Source: a virus | Virus record (IMG/VR): IMGVR_UViG_3300025010_001628 | Coordinates: 1-36,405 of that record | Direction: 5' to 3' (one strand) | DNA length: 36,405 nt | Part shown: positions 9,861 through 34,353 of the stretch, piece after piece | Numbering within the stretch: the stretch's first letter is position 1 | How the letters are laid out: every line of letters begins with the position of its first letter | Position numbers and translations under genes: made by a program | The notes under the pieces: generated by a model | What the model was told of the DNA's origin: nothing | The model's database searches: none | What the model saw: only the letters and a program-made list of their open reading frames with translations

Positions 9861-11783
9861 ATGCACAGAAAAATAACTAAACAAGAATTTGAATCATTTA
9901 AGCAGCGTAATCTTGGAACCAGAGAAGCCGTATTACTTAATTCATCTTTCAAGTTTGATGAAGCAACGAGAGAAAGTACAATTGAAACCGTTATAGCAAC
10001 CGAAACTCCCGCTGTTGTAATTGATTGGGAAAGATCAAACTGGGATAGAATGTATTTGATGAGAGAAATTTTAGTCATCAATACTGAATCAGTTGTAATC
10101 CCATCAATCGGACAAGTGCCGTTTTTAGATTCACACAGAACTTGGGAAGGAAGTGACTCTGTTAAAGGTTCAATCAGAAATATGAGAATCGAAAACGGTC
10201 AAGTTGTTGGTACAACTGTTATTTCTTCAACCGAAGAAAAGCTTGCAAAGAAAATTGAAGAGAGACATTTGACAAATGTTTCTGCCGGTTACGAAATCAG
10301 TAAAGATTTTTCTTTCCGGTTAAATAAAGATGAAACCGCAAATGTTAGCGGAAGAATTTTTAAGAATGAATTTACGGATGGACTTCCTTTAATGATCCGT
10401 ACTAAGTGGGAATTAGCTGAGGGTTCTTCCGTTATCTGGGGAGCTGATGAGAATGCACAACACAGAAGCGAACCAACGTTTGAAGAGCTTCAACAAAAAT
10501 TAGCTGATCAACAAACTGAAATCAATGAACTTAAAACAAGAACTCAAATTAAACCAAAGGAGAATAGTACAATGGAACCCAAAACCCCGGAAGAAATTCT
10601 GAAAGCTGAAGCTGAAAGACGGAAAGAAATACGTGAAACCGCTAAACGCTTTGTTGGAAGAATTTCCGATATCGAAAAAATACAGAACGATGCCGAAGAT
10701 CAGAATTGGACTGTAGAACGCTTTAATGGCGAAATCGTTTCACGAATGAAAAGCGGCGAAGAGTTCAAAACTCCTCCGGCTAATCTCGATCTATCTGAAA
10801 AAGATAAAAAGAGATATAACGTTTGGAATATCGTTCGTGCCTCTATCGAGAAAAACCCGGAACTTTGCGCGTTTGAAACAGAATGCTCGAACGAAATTGC
10901 TAAACGTTTAAACGTTGCTGCAAGAGGGCACTATGTTGAATACGGACATTTGAAACGTGAGATCACTATCGGTGTTGGCAGCGCTGATCAGTTAGTTGCA
11001 ACTGAAATGCAACCTCAAAGTTTTATGGATATGCTTTATAACAAAATGGTTTTCGGCAAATTTCTTAATGTTAAAAACATTGGCGGGTTGGTTGGCAATC
11101 TTCAATTCGGGAATAAGACTGCTGCTTCAACCGGTTACTATATCGGTGAATCTGATGTTCCAACTGAAAGCGATTTGACATTCGGTTCTCAGACAATGAG
11201 TCCGAAAACAGTTTCCGCACTCGTTCAATATTCCAGACAAACTGCATTACAAACAGCTCCATCGATGGAAGGGATTGTTCTTGCCGATGTTTTGAATGCG
11301 ATAAAACTTCGTGCCGATCTTTCAATGATCCAAGGCGCTGGCGGTGGAACTGAACTTCTCGGACTTCTTTTCGGAACCGGCGTTCAAACTTACGATGGTT
11401 CAAATTTCAATTTCGATTCTGCAGTTGATATGGAAACTCTGTTAGAAGATGCAAACGTTGATCTTGATTCCGCTAAATGGCTTACAACTCCGCTTGTTAA
11501 AGGTGCATTAAGAAAACGGAAAATTGAAGCTGGACAAACTGATAAACTCTGGAAAGCTAATCAATTGATCGAAAGAGATGCTTACGCAACCAAACAAATG
11601 CCGGTAAACGTACTTTGTTTAGTTGATCCTACCGAGATCATAGTTGGAACCTGGGGAACGCTTGATCTACAAGTTAATCGTTGGCAAGATGACGGCGGCG
11701 TTAAGGTTATTCCTTTCTGGAGCCACGATATGATCAACAGAAAAACAATCGGAACAGTTAAAACTTCTCCGGTATTCTCTTAA
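9861..11783 (+). CDS. Prohead protease-major capsid fusion protein
   Basis: The 640-residue protein has two parts. Residues ~1-200 resemble a phage prohead protease: VPFLDSHRTWEG holds the likely catalytic His, and HLTNVSAGYE the likely Ser, in the usual order. Residues ~205-310 are charged and helical, like a scaffold (delta) domain. Residues ~330-640 are an HK97-like capsid protein (E-loop region, GAGGGTELLGLL, ending in a beta-rich P-domain). In many phages these are separate genes. An internal ribosome site with ATG at 10572 could give a capsid-only product of 403 residues. The protein would assemble the prohead and mature by self-cleavage. Confidence 0.88.
   Translation: MHRKITKQEFESFKQRNLGTREAVLLNSSFKFDEATRESTIETVIATETPAVVIDWERSNWDRMYLMREILVINTESVVIPSIGQVPFLDSHRTWEGSDSVKGSIRNMRIENGQVVGTTVISSTEEKLAKKIEERHLTNVSAGYEISKDFSFRLNKDETANVSGRIFKNEFTDGLPLMIRTKWELAEGSSVIWGADENAQHRSEPTFEELQQKLADQQTEINELKTRTQIKPKENSTMEPKTPEEILKAEAERRKEIRETAKRFVGRISDIEKIQNDAEDQNWTVERFNGEIVSRMKSGEEFKTPPANLDLSEKDKKRYNVWNIVRASIEKNPELCAFETECSNEIAKRLNVAARGHYVEYGHLKREITIGVGSADQLVATEMQPQSFMDMLYNKMVFGKFLNVKNIGGLVGNLQFGNKTAASTGYYIGESDVPTESDLTFGSQTMSPKTVSALVQYSRQTALQTAPSMEGIVLADVLNAIKLRADLSMIQGAGGGTELLGLLFGTGVQTYDGSNFNFDSAVDMETLLEDANVDLDSAKWLTTPLVKGALRKRKIEAGQTDKLWKANQLIERDAYATKQMPVNVLCLVDPTEIIVGTWGTLDLQVNRWQDDGGVKVIPFWSHDMINRKTIGTVKTSPVFS
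10556..10574 (+). promoter_or_regulatory. Internal ribosome site and ATG within protease-capsid gene
   Basis: AAAGGAG (10556-10562) lies nine bases before an in-frame ATG (10572, residue Met238) that begins MEPKTPEEILKAEAE, the scaffold/capsid half. This is as good as any ribosome site in the window and sits at the domain junction. Confidence 0.65.
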
Positions 11784-11806
11784 TAGAAAAATGAAAATTT
11801 AATTAA

Positions 11807-11828
11807 GTCCCGCTAAGTAAGGCGGGAC
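11807..11828 (+). promoter_or_regulatory. Hairpin after capsid gene
   Basis: GTCCCGC and GCGGGAC form a 7-bp stem with an eight-base loop, 23 bases after the capsid stop. No U-run follows, so it is more likely an mRNA-stabilising or partial attenuation element than a full terminator. It would help keep capsid mRNA more abundant than its downstream genes. Confidence 0.6.
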
Positions 11829-11864
11829 AATTATAAAACAAAATATGAAAGTGAAATAAATATC

Positions 11865-12053
11865 ATGGCACAGAAAAAAAGCACAATGTTTGTAAAGTTT
11901 TTGAAATCGTTTGTGTTATATGGTGAAGATGTATCGCCAAAAGACACAGCCGAAGCTGCAAAAGAATTACCGATCAATGATGCAAGATTATTGATCGCGA
12001 ACAAACAAGCTGTTGAAGTTGATCCTAATCAAACCTCTAAAAAGAAAGGGTAA
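11865..12053 (+). CDS. Small head-region protein (62 aa)
   Basis: A 62-residue protein with a basic start (MAQKKSTMFVKFLKSF), a central helix (PINDARLLIANKQAVEV) and a lysine tail. Position directly after the capsid gene suggests a head-completion or accessory head protein. No family confidently recognised. It ends six bases before the next ATG. Confidence 0.6.
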   Translation: MAQKKSTMFVKFLKSFVLYGEDVSPKDTAEAAKELPINDARLLIANKQAVEVDPNQTSKKKG

Positions 12054-12058
12054 TTAAC

Positions 12059-12514
12059 ATGAAAAAGTTATCTGGAATTTTAATCTTATTACTTGCGCTT
12101 TCCGTCTTCCCGCTGATGGCGCAAGGTTTTACTGTTGATGCAGTACCGAAAGATTTAGGCGAAGCAAAAGTAATCTCTTTCACCGGTACAATTGATACGA
12201 CCGAAAGTTACACCAGTACGGAGTTCTTTCTTAACGATTGCGATTCTCTTTATTTCAGCGCAATGTTAAGCGGAACCTCTGCATCTACAAGAAAAGTTTC
12301 TTGCCAGATACGAGGCAGCAACTTTGCTTCCGGCACGGGCACTTATGCGGCTCTTGATTCACTCTTAATTAGTGATAGCGTTGCAACGGAAATATCATCT
12401 AAAATTGATCTTGGGACTGTCCGTTACCGGCGTTATACAATTAAGTTCACGGGAACCACCGGCAATGACAATACTACTTTTAACGCGGCTGTTTACGCTA
12501 TAAAAAGGAAATAA
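12059..12514 (+). CDS. Exported beta-rich protein in head operon (151 aa)
   Basis: The N-terminus MKKLSGILILLLALSVFPLM followed by AQG is a classic Sec signal peptide with a cleavage site near residues 21-22. The remainder is Thr/Ser-rich and beta-strand-like (YFSAMLSGTSASTRKVSCQI, VRYRRYTIKFTGTTG), resembling a jelly-roll or immunoglobulin-type fold. A signal peptide is unexpected among head genes because virions assemble in the cytoplasm. It may be a cell-surface or periplasmic protein made late in infection, or a decoration protein recruited from a secreted ancestor. Strong TAATTAACATG coupling to the preceding gene. Confidence 0.6.
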   Translation: MKKLSGILILLLALSVFPLMAQGFTVDAVPKDLGEAKVISFTGTIDTTESYTSTEFFLNDCDSLYFSAMLSGTSASTRKVSCQIRGSNFASGTGTYAALDSLLISDSVATEISSKIDLGTVRYRRYTIKFTGTTGNDNTTFNAAVYAIKRK

Positions 12515-14092: not shown

Positions 14093-14419
14093 ATGGAAGT
14101 ATGCAAAGAAATTGAAAGGTTGGAAAAACTTGAAAACGATACTCAATCCTTTAAAGATGATCTTCTGAAAATAAAAGAATCATTGCACACTCTTTTAGGC
14201 AGAAACAACGATTTTATAATTAAAGTGATAAATGGGAAAACGGAGGAACGGTTAGCAAGTGAGTTGATCGGCGAAATTTATGTTGAACTAAAACATATAA
14301 AAGATAAAACAACCGACGCTTCCGTAAAAAGACTGAAAGAGAAAATAAAAGACGGCGTGAATGTGTTCACCCTTGTCATCTTGATCGTTACGTTGATAAA
14401 AGTTTGGTTTGATAAATAA
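14093..14419 (+). CDS. Coiled-coil protein with C-terminal membrane anchor (XhlA-like)
   Basis: The first ~85 residues are charged and helical (EIERLEKLENDTQSFKDDLL), likely a coiled coil, and the last ~18 residues are a single membrane helix (VFTLVILIVTLIKVWF) ending in DK. This layout is that of XhlA/holin-accessory proteins, which are tail-anchored to the inner membrane. A separate two-helix holin lies at 15763, so this may assist or antagonise lysis. Confidence 0.55.
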   Translation: MEVCKEIERLEKLENDTQSFKDDLLKIKESLHTLLGRNNDFIIKVINGKTEERLASELIGEIYVELKHIKDKTTDASVKRLKEKIKDGVNVFTLVILIVTLIKVWFDK

Positions 14420-14447
14420 TAAGTTAAGACAAAATTAAATTTTAAAG

Positions 14448-14467
14448 CCCGCCTCTGGCGGGAGGAG
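14448..14467 (+). repeat. CCGCCTCTGGCGG hairpin, copy 2, abutting a ribosome site
   Basis: CCCGCC-TCT-GGCGGG is a perfect 6-bp stem with a three-base loop, followed at once by AGGAG, the ribosome site of the tail-tube gene at 14477. The stem end touches the ribosome site, so folding could tune translation. Confidence 0.75.
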
Positions 14468-14476
14468 ATAAATAAA

Positions 14477-15745
14477 ATGAGTTACGCACGCCCCGGAATT
14501 AAAGCACTTGGAATTTGTACCAAAGCTACGCTTTCATCAACAAAAACAAACCAATTCATCCTTGGTTTAAGAGATAACGTCTCTCTTGAAATTAAACCGT
14601 TCAACACGCCAACAGATCACCGGAACCGTGATCTGAAAAATATGATGAACTTTAAGATCGAAGGATCTTCTCATCAAGGGTTGACCAGTTTATCTGTTTC
14701 AGTTGCAAGTTCTATCAGTTTACTTAGTCTTCTTGTAGAGCATGCCATTCTTAATGGGGTGGATGCAGAACTTGTTGGAGAACATTCCGTTTGGAACGCT
14801 ACCGAATGGGACGGCGATGTTTACCAGCTTGCCGGTGATTACTTTGCCGGAATTGATTTTGATTTTGAACTAACAGAGAAAACCCGCAAAACAAAATTGA
14901 TCCTCGAAGCGGCTTTCAATGCCGATCTGGCACAAACAAATATTATAACCCCAAGTGAAGTTAGCGGGACCGGAAGCAAGTTATTCAATGCAACGCCGAT
15001 CGTTAAGGGATTATCTCAAGCTGCGGTTGCTGTGCCTACATTCTACAGTATTAAACTCCCACACGATACCGCTTATAACGAATTCCTTCCGGAACTTCTT
15101 ACATCATTATCTTTTAAGATGAAGAACAGCGGTGAAAAATCGATCTATAACAGAACGCTAACGGAATACTTTGAATTTGATATTTCATTTACCGTTAAAT
15201 GTGTAAGCAATGCGCAAGCCTCAGACACGCTGAAATGGATTACCGCAAAAAGTTTACTTGAAAGTTTTAAGATCTCCCAATTTATTAGCGCAAGTATAAC
15301 AGATGTATTTATGTTCAACACAAACGCCCTTTCTTCTTCTCCGGTTGTTTTAATAAGTGATGATAAACGCGAAGTAAAAGTATCGCTTAAAGGGAAAGTC
15401 CCTTATGCCGATCTTGCCTTTAATACCACCACCGGGTACACAGAATTAGTTGATACACTTTCCGCAATTACCGCCGGGACTATAAGTTTAACTATCGATG
15501 GAGTGGCGTATACGGAAGCCTTCGACACAAGCGTAAATCAAACTGTTGAAAATTTCGTTGTCACTCACCAAAGTGATTTAAACGATGCGGGAATTATTTT
15601 AACAAGCCCCTCAGCCGGTGCGCTTAAATTTGTTGCTGCTGTTGCCGGGGAATCTTTCACGTTTGTTGAAACAAGCGCGGGAACCGACGGCGTGTGGACG
15701 AAATCAGCACAGAAAACAGCTAATATTTTAACGGTTAGCGCTTAA
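14477..15745 (+). CDS. Major tail tube protein with C-terminal added domain
   Basis: The 422-residue protein is the expected tube protein by order (tail terminator upstream, assembly chaperones and tape measure downstream). The first ~310 residues are beta-rich, with a MKNSGEKSIYNRTLTEYFEFD segment typical of tube folds. The last ~95 residues (from about VDTLSAITAGTISLTIDG) look like a separate beta domain shared by phage tail and sheath proteins, probably displayed outside the tube as in lambda V. The strong AGGAG ribosome site follows a hairpin. Confidence 0.65.
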   Translation: MSYARPGIKALGICTKATLSSTKTNQFILGLRDNVSLEIKPFNTPTDHRNRDLKNMMNFKIEGSSHQGLTSLSVSVASSISLLSLLVEHAILNGVDAELVGEHSVWNATEWDGDVYQLAGDYFAGIDFDFELTEKTRKTKLILEAAFNADLAQTNIITPSEVSGTGSKLFNATPIVKGLSQAAVAVPTFYSIKLPHDTAYNEFLPELLTSLSFKMKNSGEKSIYNRTLTEYFEFDISFTVKCVSNAQASDTLKWITAKSLLESFKISQFISASITDVFMFNTNALSSSPVVLISDDKREVKVSLKGKVPYADLAFNTTTGYTELVDTLSAITAGTISLTIDGVAYTEAFDTSVNQTVENFVVTHQSDLNDAGIILTSPSAGALKFVAAVAGESFTFVETSAGTDGVWTKSAQKTANILTVSA

Positions 15746-15763
15746 TTAATTAGGAATTAGGAA
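15746..15763. repeat. AATTAGG spacer, copy 3
   Basis: AATTAGGAATTAGGAATG fills the short gap between the tube stop codon and the holin start. The AGGAAT at its end also serves as the holin ribosome site. Confidence 0.6.
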
Positions 15764-16029
15764 TGAAAAATTTAATTGAATTTCTAAAAAATATGTTCAC
15801 CTGGTTCGGCTCTTTCCTTAGCGAAGAAACGAACGGCAAAGGAAGCATGAAGCGGCTGATCATGTTCCTTTCTACATGCGCGTTCCTTCTTAGCTACGTT
15901 AAAACCACGCTGTTTAACAATAAGATCGAAGACATTCCGATTACGTGGGCGATGCTGCTTGCCGGGTTTGTTGGCTTAAATATTTACTCAAACGTAGTGC
16001 AAAATAAAAAAATAGAAGACGCAAAATGA
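15763..16029 (+). CDS. Holin (two membrane segments)
   Basis: The 88-residue protein has an N-terminal amphipathic helix (LIEFLKNMFTWFGSFL), a basic turn, and two membrane helices (residues ~32-47 and ~58-77) separated by a short polar loop, then a charged tail. It overlaps the endolysin start by four bases, giving the order holin-endolysin-spanin. It would open the inner membrane at lysis time. Confidence 0.75.
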   Translation: MKNLIEFLKNMFTWFGSFLSEETNGKGSMKRLIMFLSTCAFLLSYVKTTLFNNKIEDIPITWAMLLAGFVGLNIYSNVVQNKKIEDAK

Positions 16030-16556
16030 TCTTAACTAAAGAACAAGTATTTGCCGCTTGCGAAAAGATAGCGCCTCAATACAACTTTGAAGTAAGTCTG
16101 ATTAAAGCTCTCTGTTTGCAAGAGGGTGGGAAAAATAAAAAAGGTGAATTTGCACCGGACAAAGCGCGGCTTGAGCAAGGTTATTATTTACGCTATGTTG
16201 AAGCAAAGAATGAACTTGCAACTACAACCGAGATACTTCTTTCCGCAAGTTACGGCGTTACGCAAATGATGGGCTTATCACTTAAAGAACTTGATTTTTT
16301 TGAATGGTGGTTTTCCGAACAAGTCGAACCGATGAAAATAATTCTTGGAAATCCATTAAGTGAAATTGCAATTCCCAAAGCGCTGAATTGGTACTGTGAA
16401 CATCTTAACGCGCAGATCGATTGGGGATGCAAATGGCTTGCAAAAAAAAGAACAATGGCAAACGGAAACATTGTAAAAATGCTCGGTTACTGGAACGGCG
16501 ACTCAACCGGCAAATACGCCGCTGAGGTTTTGGCAAAACAAAAAGGATTGAAATGA
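16026..16556 (+). CDS. Endolysin, lysozyme-like transglycosylase
   Basis: The 176-residue protein has the lysozyme-superfamily pattern: a likely catalytic Glu in ALCLQEGG (E33), then SASYGVTQMMG (residues ~73-83), which matches the SYGxxQ motif of soluble lytic transglycosylases, and YWNGDSTGKYAAEV near the end, the counterpart of the YN-G motif. No signal peptide, so it depends on the holin for release. It cleaves peptidoglycan glycan strands. Confidence 0.8.
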   Translation: MILTKEQVFAACEKIAPQYNFEVSLIKALCLQEGGKNKKGEFAPDKARLEQGYYLRYVEAKNELATTTEILLSASYGVTQMMGLSLKELDFFEWWFSEQVEPMKIILGNPLSEIAIPKALNWYCEHLNAQIDWGCKWLAKKRTMANGNIVKMLGYWNGDSTGKYAAEVLAKQKGLK

Positions 16557-21064: not shown

Positions 21065-22741
21065 ATGGAAAATTATAGTTCAAAACACAAAGGCACTACC
21101 ATTGACGCGGCGATTGACATAGTGACAGCCGTTTATGGAGACATTAATCTTATCGGCGTTCCCGGTGCGCAAGGGTTTGGAGTTGGCATTTGCCCGCCTC
21201 AATTACTTCCGGCTGATCTTGTTCCGCTCAGTGGAACGTTTGATAAAACAAACGATAATTACGGTAATTACTCTTGTACCACAGACGGCTCAATTATGGT
21301 TTGGGTCCCTCGCTTTTATTACAAGATTACCAACGTTGCAGACGCCCCTTATCTTGGAACGAAAGTAGAAATAAAAGGTGTTGACACTTACCCCAACGAA
21401 GGGAATGCGAATGCTGATGGTTATGCTTTGCATCGTGCTTTCGTGGATGGTGGAGCTGTAAAATCGGGCTTCTTTGTTGATAAGTATAAATGGAGTTTGA
21501 CTAATTTCGTTTACAACTCAGCCGGTGTTGCCAGTTCGATTAAAAACGGCAATCCTATTTCTTCTGCAGTTGATTCTGAACGGAATGCGACTAATCTTTT
21601 TGCCGGTGCATTCACAAATTGTAAAAGCAATTCTCAAGCACCGACGAATATTTACGGTGGTGCGTGGGCGGCGGCTAAATCGCGCGGCGCTAACTATGCA
21701 GTCTCTTCAATCTTTATCTTTAAAGCATTAAGCCTATTGTCCTTAGCACATGGGCAAGCCGCAACAAATACAACAAACTGCGCTTGGTATCTTGCAAATA
21801 AGATTTATCCGAAAGGAAATAATAATTACGGCGCTGATGTTGATGATGCAACGTGTACCTTTACCGCTTGTGATGATGCTTATTGGGCTGCAAGAAACGA
21901 AGCAAGAAAGAACGGTTCCGGTTCTACTTTTGCGAAGACAACACACAATGGGCAGAACTGCGGAGTAAGCGATCTGCAAGGAGATCAATATCAAATAACT
22001 CAAGGATTAACTTGCACTTCTGCTTCACAAAATTTAGCAACGGGTAACATCTCTTTAGAAGCTCAAGCGATAATTACGAAGGTAGCGCATGGTTATGCTG
22101 ATGGAGATGTTCTATTCGTAGAAGGAGCTAATACTGGCGCGGGTTGGAACACCGCTATGCAGTATCGCTTTTTTACTGTGTCAGATAAAACTGATGATAC
22201 CTTTAAGTTGAAAAAAAGAACAAACGATGCTGGAGATGGTAATTATTTAGATGCCAGCGCATTAGGAGCTTATGACACGGCAAATGGCACGTTCACTTGT
22301 ACTAAGGGCGTTTTTTATATTCTTAAAGAAAGTGCAACACTTAAAGATGTAACCGGTGGAAGTGGAGCTGCAACAGATCATTTTGCGAACACAACACTAT
22401 TCGACACAATTGATTTATCTGCAATCTTGATTAATACCTATGCAAGTGATAGATTTGGTAGCGGAACTAATCAAGTTCTGGGAATGAATATTACACGTAC
22501 GCATAATGATTACAAACTTACTTCTGTAGGTTTACCGAATGCTAAAACAGCAATAAGCAGCGGAGGAACTAATAACTTTGGTACAGATTATTTGATTAAA
22601 TGGATACTGAGCAATATGTGCCCGCTCGTCGGTGGGTATTGGGATAACTTTAGTAGTGCCGGCGTGTGGCTTGTCACTTTGTATTACAGTCGTACTAGTT
22701 CTAGTAGAAGTGTCTCGGCGCGGTCGTGCCTTTATGTTTAG
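21065..22741 (+). CDS. Tail-tip receptor-binding protein with DGR-type C-terminal lectin fold
   Basis: The 558-residue protein starts with a short attachment-like region and continues with a formylglycine-generating/C-type-lectin style body: WVPRFYYKI, DGYALHRAFVDGG, then CGVSDLQGDQYQITQGL, the equivalent of the DLxGNxxE segment of DGR target proteins. An inserted domain (~310-440) resembles tail modules with ITKVAHGYADGDVLFVEGA. The last ~40 residues (VGGYWDNFSSAGVWLVTLYY and then SRTSSSRSVSARS) have the GGxW...AGVW...R..S..R pattern of Mtd/TvpA-type variable regions. It probably contacts the host surface. No reverse transcriptase was found in the window. Confidence 0.8.
   Translation: MENYSSKHKGTTIDAAIDIVTAVYGDINLIGVPGAQGFGVGICPPQLLPADLVPLSGTFDKTNDNYGNYSCTTDGSIMVWVPRFYYKITNVADAPYLGTKVEIKGVDTYPNEGNANADGYALHRAFVDGGAVKSGFFVDKYKWSLTNFVYNSAGVASSIKNGNPISSAVDSERNATNLFAGAFTNCKSNSQAPTNIYGGAWAAAKSRGANYAVSSIFIFKALSLLSLAHGQAATNTTNCAWYLANKIYPKGNNNYGADVDDATCTFTACDDAYWAARNEARKNGSGSTFAKTTHNGQNCGVSDLQGDQYQITQGLTCTSASQNLATGNISLEAQAIITKVAHGYADGDVLFVEGANTGAGWNTAMQYRFFTVSDKTDDTFKLKKRTNDAGDGNYLDASALGAYDTANGTFTCTKGVFYILKESATLKDVTGGSGAATDHFANTTLFDTIDLSAILINTYASDRFGSGTNQVLGMNITRTHNDYKLTSVGLPNAKTAISSGGTNNFGTDYLIKWILSNMCPLVGGYWDNFSSAGVWLVTLYYSRTSSSRSVSARSCLYV
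22630..22740 (+). other. DGR-like variable region (VR)
   Basis: Nearly every exposed-position codon here is NNT or NNC (TAT, GAT, TTT, AGT x6, ACT, CTT, CGT, TCT), as expected if they derive from AAT/AAC codons of a template by adenine-directed mutagenesis. Fixed codons (GGT GGG, TGG, GCC GGC GTG TGG, GCG CGG TCG) match the conserved scaffold. The end, TCTCGGCGCGGTCGTGCC, is GC-rich like the initiation-of-mutagenic-homing site. The 5' limit cannot be fixed without a template repeat. Confidence 0.65.
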
Positions 22742-22746
22742 ATGTT

Positions 22747-22769
22747 ATAGCGAACGGTAGTGCCGCTAT
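22747..22769 (+). promoter_or_regulatory. Hairpin just after the VR
   Basis: ATAGCG (22747-22752) and CGCTAT (22764-22769) form a 6-bp stem around an 11-base loop, starting six bases after the stop codon. In the Bordetella phage DGR a DNA hairpin just after the GC-rich end of the VR is needed for efficient target use. The right arm includes the ATG of the next gene. Confidence 0.5.
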
Positions 22770-23118
22770 GTATTACGTTTATATTTTAGAATGTGAATGC
22801 GATAAGTTTTATGTTGGAATGACTTCCGATTTAGAACATAGACTTATCGCACACTTATCAAATAACGGTTCGGTATTTACAAAAAAGTATTCTCCAATTA
22901 GTCTTTTTTATGTAGAGGAATTACGAACAAGGGATGAAGCAATTTCAGTTGAAACTTATTATACAAAACTCTTTAAAGTGAAAAAGCAAGAATTGAAATT
23001 GGAAGAAAAGTATAAAAATATTTTTGATGATGTTAAACAATTTATTAACAAAAACGGCAACGATTGCTGGTATAGAATTAAACAAGGAGAATTAAATCAT
23101 GCGTTATTTCAAAGCTAA
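22768..23118 (+). CDS. GIY-YIG domain protein (YhbQ/UPF0213-like)
   Basis: The protein (116 residues from this ATG) opens MYYVYILECECDKFYVGMTS, the GIY-YIG core (here VYI and YVG), then LEHRLIAHLSN with the catalytic Arg and an EELRTRDEAISVETYYTKL helix carrying the metal-binding Glu. This is the compact YhbQ-like type without added DNA-binding domains, though it has ~40 extra C-terminal residues. The ATG lies in the hairpin after the VR and has no good ribosome site; a GTG at 22726, inside the VR, is an alternative start. It could be a homing-type passenger. Confidence 0.7.
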   Translation: MYYVYILECECDKFYVGMTSDLEHRLIAHLSNNGSVFTKKYSPISLFYVEELRTRDEAISVETYYTKLFKVKKQELKLEEKYKNIFDDVKQFINKNGNDCWYRIKQGELNHALFQS

Positions 23119-23506
23119 AAAAGTAGTTGACGAATTAACAACAAAATCCTTTTCTCAGATCAATGATAAGGACAAAATATATCGTTACGAGGAAAAAGAT
23201 GGAGTTGAATATCTTGGAGTTGATTCTGCAGACATACCAACGTTGCTGAAAGCTCAACCGGTTGAATTAGAGGTAAAAGAGCTTACCTACGATGAAATAA
23301 AACCGGTTCTTGACGATTGCAGATTGATGAAAGATTTCAATGCAATAGTTGAGAAAGAAATAGCGGAAAAATATTCCGTTGGTCGGGAATTCAAAATGCT
23401 GAATTTGGCAGCTACTGATCAAGAACGACTTGACTATGAAGCATTCAAAGAAGCGGTAAAAGCGCCGGTAAGACTGCTAAAAAAAGATATGGGATTGGTA
23501 GCTTAA
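23099..23506 (+). CDS. Hypothetical protein after tail-tip genes (135 aa)
   Basis: The ATG overlaps the end of the GIY-YIG gene and follows a strong AAGGAGAATTAA site. The product is soluble, beginning MRYFKAKKVVDELTTKSFSQ with an acidic beta-rich middle (IYRYEEKDGVEYLGVDSAD) and a helical end. No family recognised. Position after the receptor-binding gene and before attP suggests a tail-fibre accessory or assembly protein. Confidence 0.55.
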   Translation: MRYFKAKKVVDELTTKSFSQINDKDKIYRYEEKDGVEYLGVDSADIPTLLKAQPVELEVKELTYDEIKPVLDDCRLMKDFNAIVEKEIAEKYSVGREFKMLNLAATDQERLDYEAFKEAVKAPVRLLKKDMGLVA

Positions 23507-28442: not shown

Positions 28443-28660
28443 TGCTCTACAAGATTGAGACCAAAGGAATTGACCGAATAGTAATTGCAAAAATAGATGC
28501 AAAGTTATTCGAGGCGATCGTTGAAACCAAAGGCAATGGTTATGCTTTTTTTCTTTCCAATTTTAATAAATACATTGAAAGGCTTTTATGGAACAAGAAA
28601 TTTGGAAAGCGATTCAAGGAACAAATGATGAATATTTTGTTTCTATTTACGGCGATATAA
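28442..28660 (+). CDS. Hypothetical protein, probably truncated by HNH insertion (72 aa)
   Basis: The first ~48 residues (from MLYKIETKGIDRIVIAKIDA) look like an ordinary small early protein. The last ~24 codons overlap the HNH gene in another frame and read as low-quality sequence (FKEQMMNILFLFTAI). This suggests that the original 3' end was displaced when the HNH gene entered. No family recognised. Confidence 0.5.
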   Translation: MLYKIETKGIDRIVIAKIDAKLFEAIVETKGNGYAFFLSNFNKYIERLLWNKKFGKRFKEQMMNILFLFTAI

Positions 28661-29121
28661 AAGCCGTCAGTAAAATTCTTCAAAGAAACGGTCATTTTTA
28701 TTTAAGAGAATCAAAATTCCCCAAACAGATCGCTCATAATTGTGGTTATTTAATGGTAAAACTCCGTGGCTTTAACGCTAAACTGATTCACCGAATAGTT
28801 GCAGAGGCTTTTATTCCTAACCCGGAAAACAAAGAATGTGTAAACCATATTAACGGCAAAAAAAGTGATAACAGAGTTGAAAATTTAGAGTGGGTTACAA
28901 AGTCTGAAAATATGACACACGCTTACCGCACAATAGATGCTTTCCATTTTACCAAAAAAGTAAATCAATTTGATATAAACGGCAACTTTATTAAATCGTT
29001 TAATTCTTCCATACAAGCTGCAAAGGAATTAAACCGCGCTAAAGGTTCGATCTGTAACAATCTGAATGGAAGAACAAAAAGTGTTGCCGGTTTTGTATTC
29101 AAATTTGCAGAGGAAAACTAA
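28588..29121 (+). CDS. HNH homing endonuclease with NUMOD domains
   Basis: The 177-residue protein begins with a NUMOD4-like part (EIWKAIQGTNDEYFVSIYGD). The HNH_3 motif is NHINGKKSDNRVENLEW (residues ~85-101), preceded by LIHRIVAEAF. It ends with a NUMOD1-like DNA-binding tail (VNQFDINGNFIKSFNSSIQA and KGSICNNLNGR). Such free-standing HNH enzymes spread themselves and linked DNA between phages. The start is the ATG after GAAAGGCTTTT. Its stop codon abuts a duplicated gene start at 29121. Confidence 0.85.
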   Translation: MEQEIWKAIQGTNDEYFVSIYGDIKAVSKILQRNGHFYLRESKFPKQIAHNCGYLMVKLRGFNAKLIHRIVAEAFIPNPENKECVNHINGKKSDNRVENLEWVTKSENMTHAYRTIDAFHFTKKVNQFDINGNFIKSFNSSIQAAKELNRAKGSICNNLNGRTKSVAGFVFKFAEEN

Positions 29122-29219
29122 TGGCAAACATTAGCTTAGCATTTGAACCAAACTCACTTCTGCTTTACGGTGGAAGTTTCCGAAAACAAGATTGTACTTA
29201 CCCGGGAGGAATGAATTGA
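29121..29219 (+). pseudogene. Duplicated 5' fragment of the gene at 30157 (32-codon ORF)
   Basis: The first 50 bases match 30157-30206 at 47 positions. The three differences are all synonymous, so both begin MANISLAFEPNSLLLYG. After that the sequences diverge and this copy ends at a TGA overlapping the methyltransferase start. It contains that gene's ribosome site (GGGAGG). Either a remnant or a short translated leader peptide. Confidence 0.75.
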
Positions 29220-30157
29220 AACACGGCTCTCTGTTCTCCGGCATTGGTGGGTTTGATCTTGCGGCAGAAAGAGTTGGTTTTGAAAACATATTCCAGGTTG
29301 AGATTGATCCGTTTTGTCAAAAAGTTTTAACCAAAAATTTCCCGGGCATTAAAAAATATTTAGACATAAAGGATTTTGATGGAACAGAGTATCGAGGAAA
29401 AGTTGACATTATTTCCGGAGGATTCCCTTGCCAGCCTTTCAGCATCGCCGGGAAGGGTGAAGGTGATAAAGACCCAAGAGCTTTATTCCCCCAGATGCTT
29501 AGAGTTATTGGAGAAGCAAAACCACGGTGGGTTGTGGCGGAAAATGTTGGTGGAATTATTAGTAATAAAAACGGAAAATATTTCGAGGAAGTTTGCACAC
29601 AATTGGAAGATAAAGGTTACTCGGTACAATCGTTTATTATTCCAGCTTCAGCCGTTAATGCCCCGCACAAACGAAATAGAATCTGGATTATTGCACACAC
29701 CAACAGTAACGATAAGCGAAACAACGGAAGAGAAATTCAAAGCCCGGCAGAAACGAATGAAGGAACGTTGGAAAGGGAAAACGGGAAACGGTTGCGGCGC
29801 GGGATTAGCACAACAGATATTAATGCTTCCAACACCAAAAGCGAACAGCTACAAAAAACAAGTCCCACACGGAGAAGGCGGAATAGAACTATCTTTATTG
29901 ATGCAACTATTGCCAACGCCAACAACTCCACGCCCGCACGACAACGAGGAAACGGCGGGGAAATATTATCCATCACAAAATCAGAAAGACTTAACAATAA
30001 TTGGGAAGAATCCTGGTATGAAGTTGCAACCCGCTTTTGCAGAGTGGATGATGGGGTATCCAACCGGGTGGACAGACTTAAAGGATTAGGCAATGCCATC
30101 GTTCCGCAAATAGCACAAATAATTTTTGAGACAATAAAACAAATGGAATTAAACTAA
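29216..30157 (+). CDS. C5 cytosine DNA methyltransferase
   Basis: The 313-residue enzyme starts at TTG, six bases after GGGAGG, giving MKHGSLFSGIGGFDLAAE. Motif I is GSLFSGIGGFD (4-14), motif IV PCQ with catalytic C72 (GGFPCQPF), motif VI ENV (109-111), motif VIII near RNRIWIIAH, and motifs IX/X near RVDRLKGLGNAIVPQIAQII. The region between motifs VIII and IX is short and Arg/Asn-rich, an odd target-recognition domain, and is the part that also encodes a second protein in another frame. It should methylate cytosine-5 in phage DNA, probably against host restriction. No partner nuclease is nearby. Confidence 0.92.
   Translation: MKHGSLFSGIGGFDLAAERVGFENIFQVEIDPFCQKVLTKNFPGIKKYLDIKDFDGTEYRGKVDIISGGFPCQPFSIAGKGEGDKDPRALFPQMLRVIGEAKPRWVVAENVGGIISNKNGKYFEEVCTQLEDKGYSVQSFIIPASAVNAPHKRNRIWIIAHTNSNDKRNNGREIQSPAETNEGTLERENGKRLRRGISTTDINASNTKSEQLQKTSPTRRRRNRTIFIDATIANANNSTPARQRGNGGEILSITKSERLNNNWEESWYEVATRFCRVDDGVSNRVDRLKGLGNAIVPQIAQIIFETIKQMELN
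29379..30089 (+). CDS. Overlapping ORF inside methyltransferase gene (236 aa)
   Basis: A long ORF lies in a different frame wholly within the methyltransferase. Its ATG has a perfect ribosome site (AAAGGA, five bases upstream). The product reads like a known type of phage protein that accompanies methyltransferases: SASPGRVKVIKTQELYSPRC, RLLFQLQPLMPRTNEIESGL, LHTPT, MLPTPKAN, QLLPTPTTPRPHDNEETAGK, then AFAEWMMGYPTGWTDL at the end. The final motif is familiar from phage cytosine-methylase-associated proteins. Identification is from memory; whether it is a partner or inhibitor is unknown. Confidence 0.6.
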   Translation: MEQSIEEKLTLFPEDSLASLSASPGRVKVIKTQELYSPRCLELLEKQNHGGLWRKMLVELLVIKTENISRKFAHNWKIKVTRYNRLLFQLQPLMPRTNEIESGLLHTPTVTISETTEEKFKARQKRMKERWKGKTGNGCGAGLAQQILMLPTPKANSYKKQVPHGEGGIELSLLMQLLPTPTTPRPHDNEETAGKYYPSQNQKDLTIIGKNPGMKLQPAFAEWMMGYPTGWTDLKD

Positions 30158-33372: not shown

Positions 33373-34353
33373 ATGGAAGAAAAACGAAGTTACTATGCAA
33401 TTCTTTCAGCTGATGTAAGGTATTGTAAAGCTATTACTAACGGCGCAAAACTGTTATATGCAGAAATAACCGCGCTGTGCAATTCGGAAGGGTATTGTTG
33501 GGCGACTAATCGATACTTCGCAAATTTGTATGAAATAAACGTTGCAACGGTTTCTGTATGGATTTCTTCGCTCGAAAAAGAAGGATTTATAAGGATCGAT
33601 TCCGGGCATGCGGAAGGTAACAGACGGAAGATCTATTTGAATTTCAAGAAAAATCAACCGGAATTATTTGAAGAAGTTATCGAAGAAGTTGTTGAAACTA
33701 CCCCCTCATTAGAAAAATCTAAAGAGGGTATAGAGAAAAATCTAAAGACCTCATTAGAAAAATCTAAAGAGGGTATAGAGAAAAATCTAAAGACCTCATT
33801 AGAAAAATCTAAAGACATTAATAATACAAGTAATACTAAAGAGAATATTAAAAGTGATGGTAGTTGTCCGGAAACGCAAAACGACAACAACGATTTTTTT
33901 AACTGCAAAAAGGAAGCGCAGCAACTTATGGCAATTTGGGGAAGATCACCAAATAACAACGGTGAATATTTTGCTATTGAGAAACTGCTTAACGATTACA
34001 CCTTTGAGGAACTTAAAAAAGCGTTCTACAAAGTGGCTGAGCGAAGCGGAGCCGATAAAGGGAAGCTTAACCTTGCATACGTTCGTGGAGTTGCTAAGGG
34101 CATGCGTGAAGATGCTGAAAAGCTAAAAGCAAAGGAAGATGCGGAACGATTGAAAGCTGAAAAACAAAAACAGAAATTAGAAGATCTTCGCAATACAGAA
34201 AGCAACAGCGAAGGAGTTCCAATTTTCAAAGAATTGATTGAACAGTTTTCAAAGGCAAAAACACCGGCTAAGTCTCAAACTGATTATAAAGAAACGGAAG
34301 AATATAAAAACAAAAAACGTGAGTTTGAACAAAAACTAAAGGAAGCAAGCTAA
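33373..34353 (+). CDS. Replication initiator-like protein (DnaD/O type)
   Basis: The 326-residue protein has an N-terminal winged helix (residues ~10-95): GAKLLYAEITALCNSEGYCW and EINVATVSVWISSLEKEGFI, the classic phage replication HTH. A repetitive linker follows (SLEKSKEGIEKNLKT twice, then SLEKSKD), and then a DnaD-like helical part (FAIEKLLNDYTFEELKKAFY and LNLAYVRGVAKGM). The charged tail is Lys-rich. As in lambda O, the linker DNA carries iterons, so the protein probably binds its own gene. The downstream partner (helicase loader) was not identified. Confidence 0.8.
   Translation: MEEKRSYYAILSADVRYCKAITNGAKLLYAEITALCNSEGYCWATNRYFANLYEINVATVSVWISSLEKEGFIRIDSGHAEGNRRKIYLNFKKNQPELFEEVIEEVVETTPSLEKSKEGIEKNLKTSLEKSKEGIEKNLKTSLEKSKDINNTSNTKENIKSDGSCPETQNDNNDFFNCKKEAQQLMAIWGRSPNNNGEYFAIEKLLNDYTFEELKKAFYKVAERSGADKGKLNLAYVRGVAKGMREDAEKLKAKEDAERLKAEKQKQKLEDLRNTESNSEGVPIFKELIEQFSKAKTPAKSQTDYKETEEYKNKKREFEQKLKEAS
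33705..33860 (+). other. Candidate replication origin: iterons and AT-rich tract
   Basis: A 45-bp unit occurs twice and then in part (33705, 33750, 33795). Within it AGAAAAATCTAAAGA appears five times, at 33711, 33734, 33756, 33779 and 33801, spaced 23, 22, 23 and 22 bases. A very AT-rich stretch (33816-33860, TTAATAATAC and so on) follows. Iterons beside an AT-rich tract within an initiator gene match lambda ori. Confidence 0.7.

Follow-up and report, generated by a model that had tools for sequence, protein, structure and literature searches.

Genes of the record and fold of the adhesin

The window analysed here is the entire IMG/VR virus record IMGVR_UViG_3300025010_001628, 36,405 bases of linear sequence without end repeats. 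It carries terminase, portal, capsid, tape-measure and other tail genes together with an integrase, a repressor, ParB and replication genes, and, judging from this gene content, its source looks like a temperate tailed phage. Elsewhere in the record, a radical-SAM protein (PA0069/Rv2578c-like, of a photolyase-like phage family) is encoded at 1097-1906, upstream of the terminase genes, and genes for a C5-cytosine methyltransferase and an HNH endonuclease adjoin each other at 28588-30157. The present study concerns an adhesin whose C-terminus resembles the targets of diversity-generating retroelements (DGRs), and the interval that follows it:

21065-22741, plus strand: adhesin / DGR-type variable protein, 558 aa, with a C-type-lectin (FGE-like) fold according to homologues and an AlphaFold2 model
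22016-22420, plus strand: domain inserted into the lectin fold (residues ~318-452), resembling a tail-tube / E1-FCCH domain
22619-22729, plus strand: variable region (VR), as aligned to the template repeats (TRs) of the relatives L020 and L021; diversified codons at 22637-22711
22712-22732, plus strand: GC-rich 3' end, corresponding to the IMH-like segment common to VR and TR in relatives
22747-22769, plus strand: putative remnant of the DGR target hairpin, ATAGCG-A-AC-[GGTA]-GT-GC-CGCTAT; 5' arm and loop match the relative L019, 3' arm replaced
22761/22762, no strand: left breakpoint, where homology to DGR-bearing relatives stops inside the hairpin 3' arm
22768-23118, plus strand: GIY-YIG nuclease gene, 116 aa (PF01541, E 9e-15, residues 1-71), standing where relatives have Avd, TR and reverse transcriptase (RT)
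23099-23506, plus strand: 'MRYF' gene, found directly after the DGR cassette in L020 and L021 and after a scar in L019; right border

The adhesin, whose C-terminus reads ...CPLVGGYWDNFSSAGVWLVTLYYSRTSSSRSVSARSCLYV*, presumably sits at the tail tip and would bind the receptor. For the tail gene upstream of it, relatives were sought in IMG/VR and none was confirmed. A PDB search with the adhesin as a single sequence likewise returned no relative; profile and fold comparison did find relatives. The AlphaFold2 model, for which 54 proteins from the window and the loci were aligned as input, reached a pTM of 0.90 and a mean pLDDT of 84.8, and its best Foldseek matches in the PDB were chains of TaqVP, the DGR variable protein of Thermus aquaticus (E 2.6e-14). 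With VIA-align the model scored Z 29.7 over 310 residues against TaqVP (PDB 5vf4), Z ~12 against BPP-1 Mtd, Z 11.6 against Treponema denticola TvpA and Z ~10 against formylglycine-generating enzymes. A preliminary description, made from the sequence letters, had taken the C-terminus for a DGR-type variable region and had called for a fold prediction; the model confirms a C-type-lectin / DGR-variable-protein fold that has the VR at its C-terminal end, and TaqVP is the closest PDB structure. The inserted domain finds support in a Pfam E1_FCCH match in the homologues L002 and L003. The likeness to TaqVP extends to the position of the VR, which there, too, ends an FGE-like protein (PMC4605624), whereas identity over the aligned residues is only 22% and T. 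aquaticus prophage 2, unlike the window, possesses an RT and a TR.

Complete DGRs in relatives and the variable region of the window

A search of IMG/VR for adhesin homologues yielded 80 loci; in about half of them a template follows the VR at a distance of 450-600 bases and shows zero or nearly zero non-adenine mismatches. Complete DGRs on the homologues follow the order VR, Avd, TR, RT; an RT is present in 24 of the 50 whole records among the relatives, and RT-bearing members of the family carry it within ~1.7 kb after the VR. A prophage of Helicobacter ganmani (BK070120.1) is built in the same way, its adhesin homologue being followed by Avd (bAvd, E 3e-12), the TR and an RT (RVT_1, E 1e-20). 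It resembles the window in the homologous adhesin with a VR at the C-terminus, directly after whose stop lies a GATA-loop hairpin, but Avd, TR and RT stand downstream where the window has the GIY-YIG gene. Both the complete DGRs on homologues and the DGR-variable-protein fold bear out the proposed nature of the C-terminus.

The nearest relatives by protein identity are L019 and L020 (both 54%) and L021 (50%). Between TR and VR of L020, 17 of the 34 adenine sites differ but none of the 77 others; for L021 the counts are 13 of 31 and 0 of 80. Adenine-biased templates do exist, then, in related genomes. Near-identical relatives differ chiefly within the VR: L038 or L039 and L044 at 14 of 108 VR sites and at none of 1392 in the remaining gene segment compared, L047 and L074 at 20/108 against 0/1392, and L073 and L078 at 20/108 against 6/1392. 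The codons changed between near-identical RT-bearing relatives are mostly NNY, and this pattern suggests that the DGRs of RT-bearing relatives are at work. The pair L002/L064 was considered as a further case of ongoing diversification and set aside, its VR changes including third-position and non-NNY changes and being more recombination-like. Beside the DGR locus of L021, at 14134-16359 of that record, lies a gene whose subtilisin-like product ends in a sorting-type domain (YPNPFNPST), hinting at a host of Bacteroidota/Ignavibacteria type for this lineage.

The VR of the window carries the corresponding traces. AGT codons, six of which had caught attention at the outset, make up 6 of the 37 VR codons and 7 of the 519 codons before them (Fisher p = 7e-5). 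The exposed codons had likewise been said to be mostly NNT or NNC, and at the positions where relatives have AAY codons in the template all 13 are NNY (TAT GAT AAC AGT AGT CTT ACT TAT TAC AGT AGT AGT AGT), against a background of 61% T/C-ending codons (p = 0.0016), a signature that is moderate when taken alone. Set against the L020 template, the window VR shows differences at 18 of the 34 adenine sites, compared with 14 of the 77 other sites (p = 5e-4); nine of these 14 non-adenine differences fall at third codon positions, as ordinary divergence would give. The GC-rich end at 22712-22732, also reported before, matches the 3' end common to VR and TR in relatives (for the role of the IMH, see PMC3240598). 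Therefore, from the bias towards adenine sites together with the uniform NNY codons, the window VR was most likely written by a DGR. The preliminary description had named three outcomes that would speak against a DGR target, namely the lack of adenine-biased templates in related genomes, relatives whose differences spread evenly over codon positions, and a fold other than C-type lectin; none of them was found.

Homing in BPP-1 requires an inverted repeat that lies right after the VR and has a GRNA loop (PMC3240598). The GRNA-loop hairpin motif occurs within 30 bases after the stop in 47 of 48 loci of the adhesin family with a full RT, against a background of ~2%, and in 11 of 26 loci without a full RT (p = 6e-8 against the full-RT loci). 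The RT-bearing loci contribute 40 distinct hairpins: in 26 of them, two Watson-Crick pairs are followed by tandem G.A mismatches, and 12 are fully paired there; the typical form is GAGC-GATA-GCGA, and the inner pairs covary (e.g., L043, L065, L073, L020, L021). Two Watson-Crick pairs closing the GATA loop are all that most hairpins of the family have before the mismatches, whereas phage DGRs have been described with a stem of 7-10 bp that is paired throughout.

The 6-bp-stem hairpin noted earlier behind the window VR is indeed present (22747-22752 / 22764-22769), with a loop, GGTA, of the GRNA type and a folding energy of -5.0 kcal/mol (z -2.2). The bare stem says little, since such a stem arises by itself in 21% of shuffles; the weight rests on the GGTA loop and on the identity with L019, which amounts to 19 of 21 bases between the stop codon and the end of the loop, the 5' arm included. 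The window retains GAAC-GGTA-GTG, after which the 3' arm, here CCGCTAT, makes a different outer stem. This would fit a target site that is no longer under selection, but it is no proof that the site is dead, and against that reading a GRNA-loop fold is still available to the window hairpin. BPP-1 shares with the window a C-type-lectin receptor-binding protein (Mtd), a C-terminal VR, a GC-rich 3' end and a GRNA-loop hairpin after the VR (PMC3240598), but it has TR, Avd, RT and a fully paired stem, whereas the window has none of the three genes or repeats and its 3' arm is replaced.

That the adhesin is an ordinary lectin-fold protein without any DGR in its past, and came to look like a DGR target through convergence, is hardly conceivable. 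The fold is, to be sure, also found in proteins outside DGRs, the formylglycine-generating enzymes among them, and the codon signature by itself carries limited weight. Nevertheless, the window adhesin nests among DGR-bearing sequences on the adhesin tree, its hairpin 5' arm and loop are nearly those of L019, which retains Avd, and not one of the codons at template AAY positions departs from NNY.

The interval between the hairpin and the MRYF gene

No RVT_1 match was found anywhere in the 36.4-kb record, including the site where relatives carry the RT; tblastn with the Avd proteins of L020 and L016 found no Avd in the window; and a scan of both strands of the window in which only adenine mismatches were free found no template repeat of at least 45 bases, the same kind of scan succeeding in about half of the relatives. 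The apparent lack of a template repeat and RT that had been reported before holds for the whole record, from which Avd is absent too. At 30 bases the window gave 14 template candidates against 3-8 for shuffles; the best have 13-15 mismatches, three of the four best shown falling in one stretch, 33711-33756, and they were not accepted as templates.

These absences are explained by synteny, the site of the cassette being readable on both sides and holding the GIY-YIG gene. In L020 and L021 the order is adhesin, Avd, TR, RT and then a gene of 135-140 aa starting MRYF or similar; in L019 and L022 it is adhesin, Avd and the MRYF gene, with TR and RT gone, and the residue left before the MRYF gene in these two looks like a scar of the last RT codons. 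In the window the order is adhesin, GIY-YIG gene and MRYF gene. The window MRYF protein is 54% identical to its counterpart in L019 and L020, and its start is overlapped by 20 nt by the upstream gene, which is the GIY-YIG gene in the window and the RT gene in L020. The GIY-YIG gene had been overlooked in the preliminary description; its ATG at 22768 falls inside the hairpin 3' arm. The left breakpoint is placed to the base, while the right one is only approximate: the 40 bases before the MRYF gene are weakly alike to L019 (shuffle p 0.011) and not beyond chance to L020 and L021, and a possible scar there is too short to place.

What was recognised in the GIY-YIG protein is its catalytic domain plus a short tail, and nothing more; a group I intron endonuclease model matches weakly, below the cut-off. 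Its phage relatives are distant (33-43% identity), and no further copies of the gene were found in IMG/VR. One might speculate, though we regard it as a long shot, that the nuclease cuts relatives without it and so would drive the exchange of adhesin C-termini between co-infecting phages. If true, the phage would have given up a retroelement that writes new variants in return for a nuclease that exchanges those already present.

A DGR might be sought elsewhere in the same phage, beyond the ends of a record that is linear, without end repeats and possibly incomplete. This is very improbable, as the RTs of the family sit no more than ~1.7 kb after the VR, a site fully sequenced in the window, and the record has its terminase, portal, capsid, tail, integrase, repressor and replication genes, so that little can be missing. 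The preliminary description had left three options side by side, a DGR acting in trans, one beyond the edges, or one that was lost; synteny with relatives favours the last.

We consider it highly probable that the window VR is a fossil, the DGR having been deleted and replaced by the GIY-YIG gene and the VR now being frozen. In this family, the C-terminal lectin loops of the adhesins would normally be rewritten by an adjacent DGR, RT and Avd making a copy of the template repeat that is random where the template has adenines, and this copy being pasted into the VR. Such a DGR would have acted on the adhesin gene in an ancestor of the window phage, leaving the NNY codons; the cassette of Avd, TR and RT would later have been deleted, perhaps stepwise as in L019, and the small GIY-YIG gene would have come to occupy the gap from the break in the post-VR hairpin to the next gene. 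On this reading no element elsewhere would act on it, and the present VR most likely represents one fixed binding specificity, which would change only via ordinary mutation and recombination.

Alternatively, a second element residing in the host, e.g., a related DGR prophage, might lend its RT, Avd and template and so keep diversifying the VR in trans. DGRs are able to act on remote targets (PMC8144416), and in T. aquaticus, where prophage 1 has no RT annotated, a stretch of 3.56 kb, within which VR1 falls by the printed coordinates, is 99.6% identical between this prophage and the DGR-bearing prophage 2 (PMC4605624). The GRNA loop kept in the window hairpin would also suit such a supply. Furthermore, L048 and L077, whose records hold no RT or TR, differ at 14 of 108 VR sites against 50 of 1386 outside, mostly in NNY codons, and carry an ATCC-GATA-GGAT hairpin ~29 bases past the stop. 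Their VR differences mean that VRs without an RT can keep changing by some route, and the pair is a candidate for a DGR in trans or beyond the contig, although the template predicted for it had no match in the collections searched. For the window we regard supply in trans as unlikely: the degenerate template patterns of its VR found no match in viral or genome collections, the replaced 3' arm is part of the recognition structure in BPP-1, and the hairpin is often lost in members without an RT.

Presence and absence of the DGR across the adhesin family

DGRs are regarded as lasting engines of host-range change. In the adhesin family this engine has apparently been lost repeatedly. Among the 72 informative members, 45 have a DGR and 27 lack a full one, and the presence labels need 22 changes on the tree, at least 17 of them forced by well-supported branches, which is hardly fewer than for shuffled labels; the tree is a quick, unrooted one with the VR columns removed and some records being fragments, and the count of switches is therefore rough. 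Several loci bear scars: Avd without TR or RT (L019, L022), a partial Avd (L025), a partial RT (L063, L080), Avd with a decayed template (L089, L097) and a C-terminal stub of the RT (L108). In those loci the scars set the direction of change as loss, and DGR loss thus appears to recur across the family. The pair L019/L022 was also weighed as proof that a VR freezes once its DGR is gone, for which it is weak, with only 3 differing sites outside one recombined patch.

Leftover DGR targets are already known. In Treponema denticola (PMC4891356) and in cyanobacteria (PMC7517822), target genes that bear a VR and show adenine-biased differences, yet are without RT or TR, have been interpreted as what lost DGRs left behind. 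Those, however, are bacterial genes, whereas the window adds the case of a phage adhesin for which the left breakpoint is mapped and the replacing gene, a nuclease gene in place of the cassette, is identified. In the literature, of which our coverage is partial, we found no description of repeated DGR loss across one phage adhesin family. The window details one such loss, with the target intact, the left border resolved and a new gene in the gap, and sister pairs with and without a DGR (L019/L020, L063/L067, L065/L086 and L026/L084) offer a ready comparison of the gain and cost of fixing a receptor-binding variant. A further scar is seen in L096, from a Bacteroidetes MAG, where the ORF at 11741-12490 of that record has a DGR RT C-terminus for its N-terminal part, a remnant kept in frame, and apparently runs on into the downstream structural gene.
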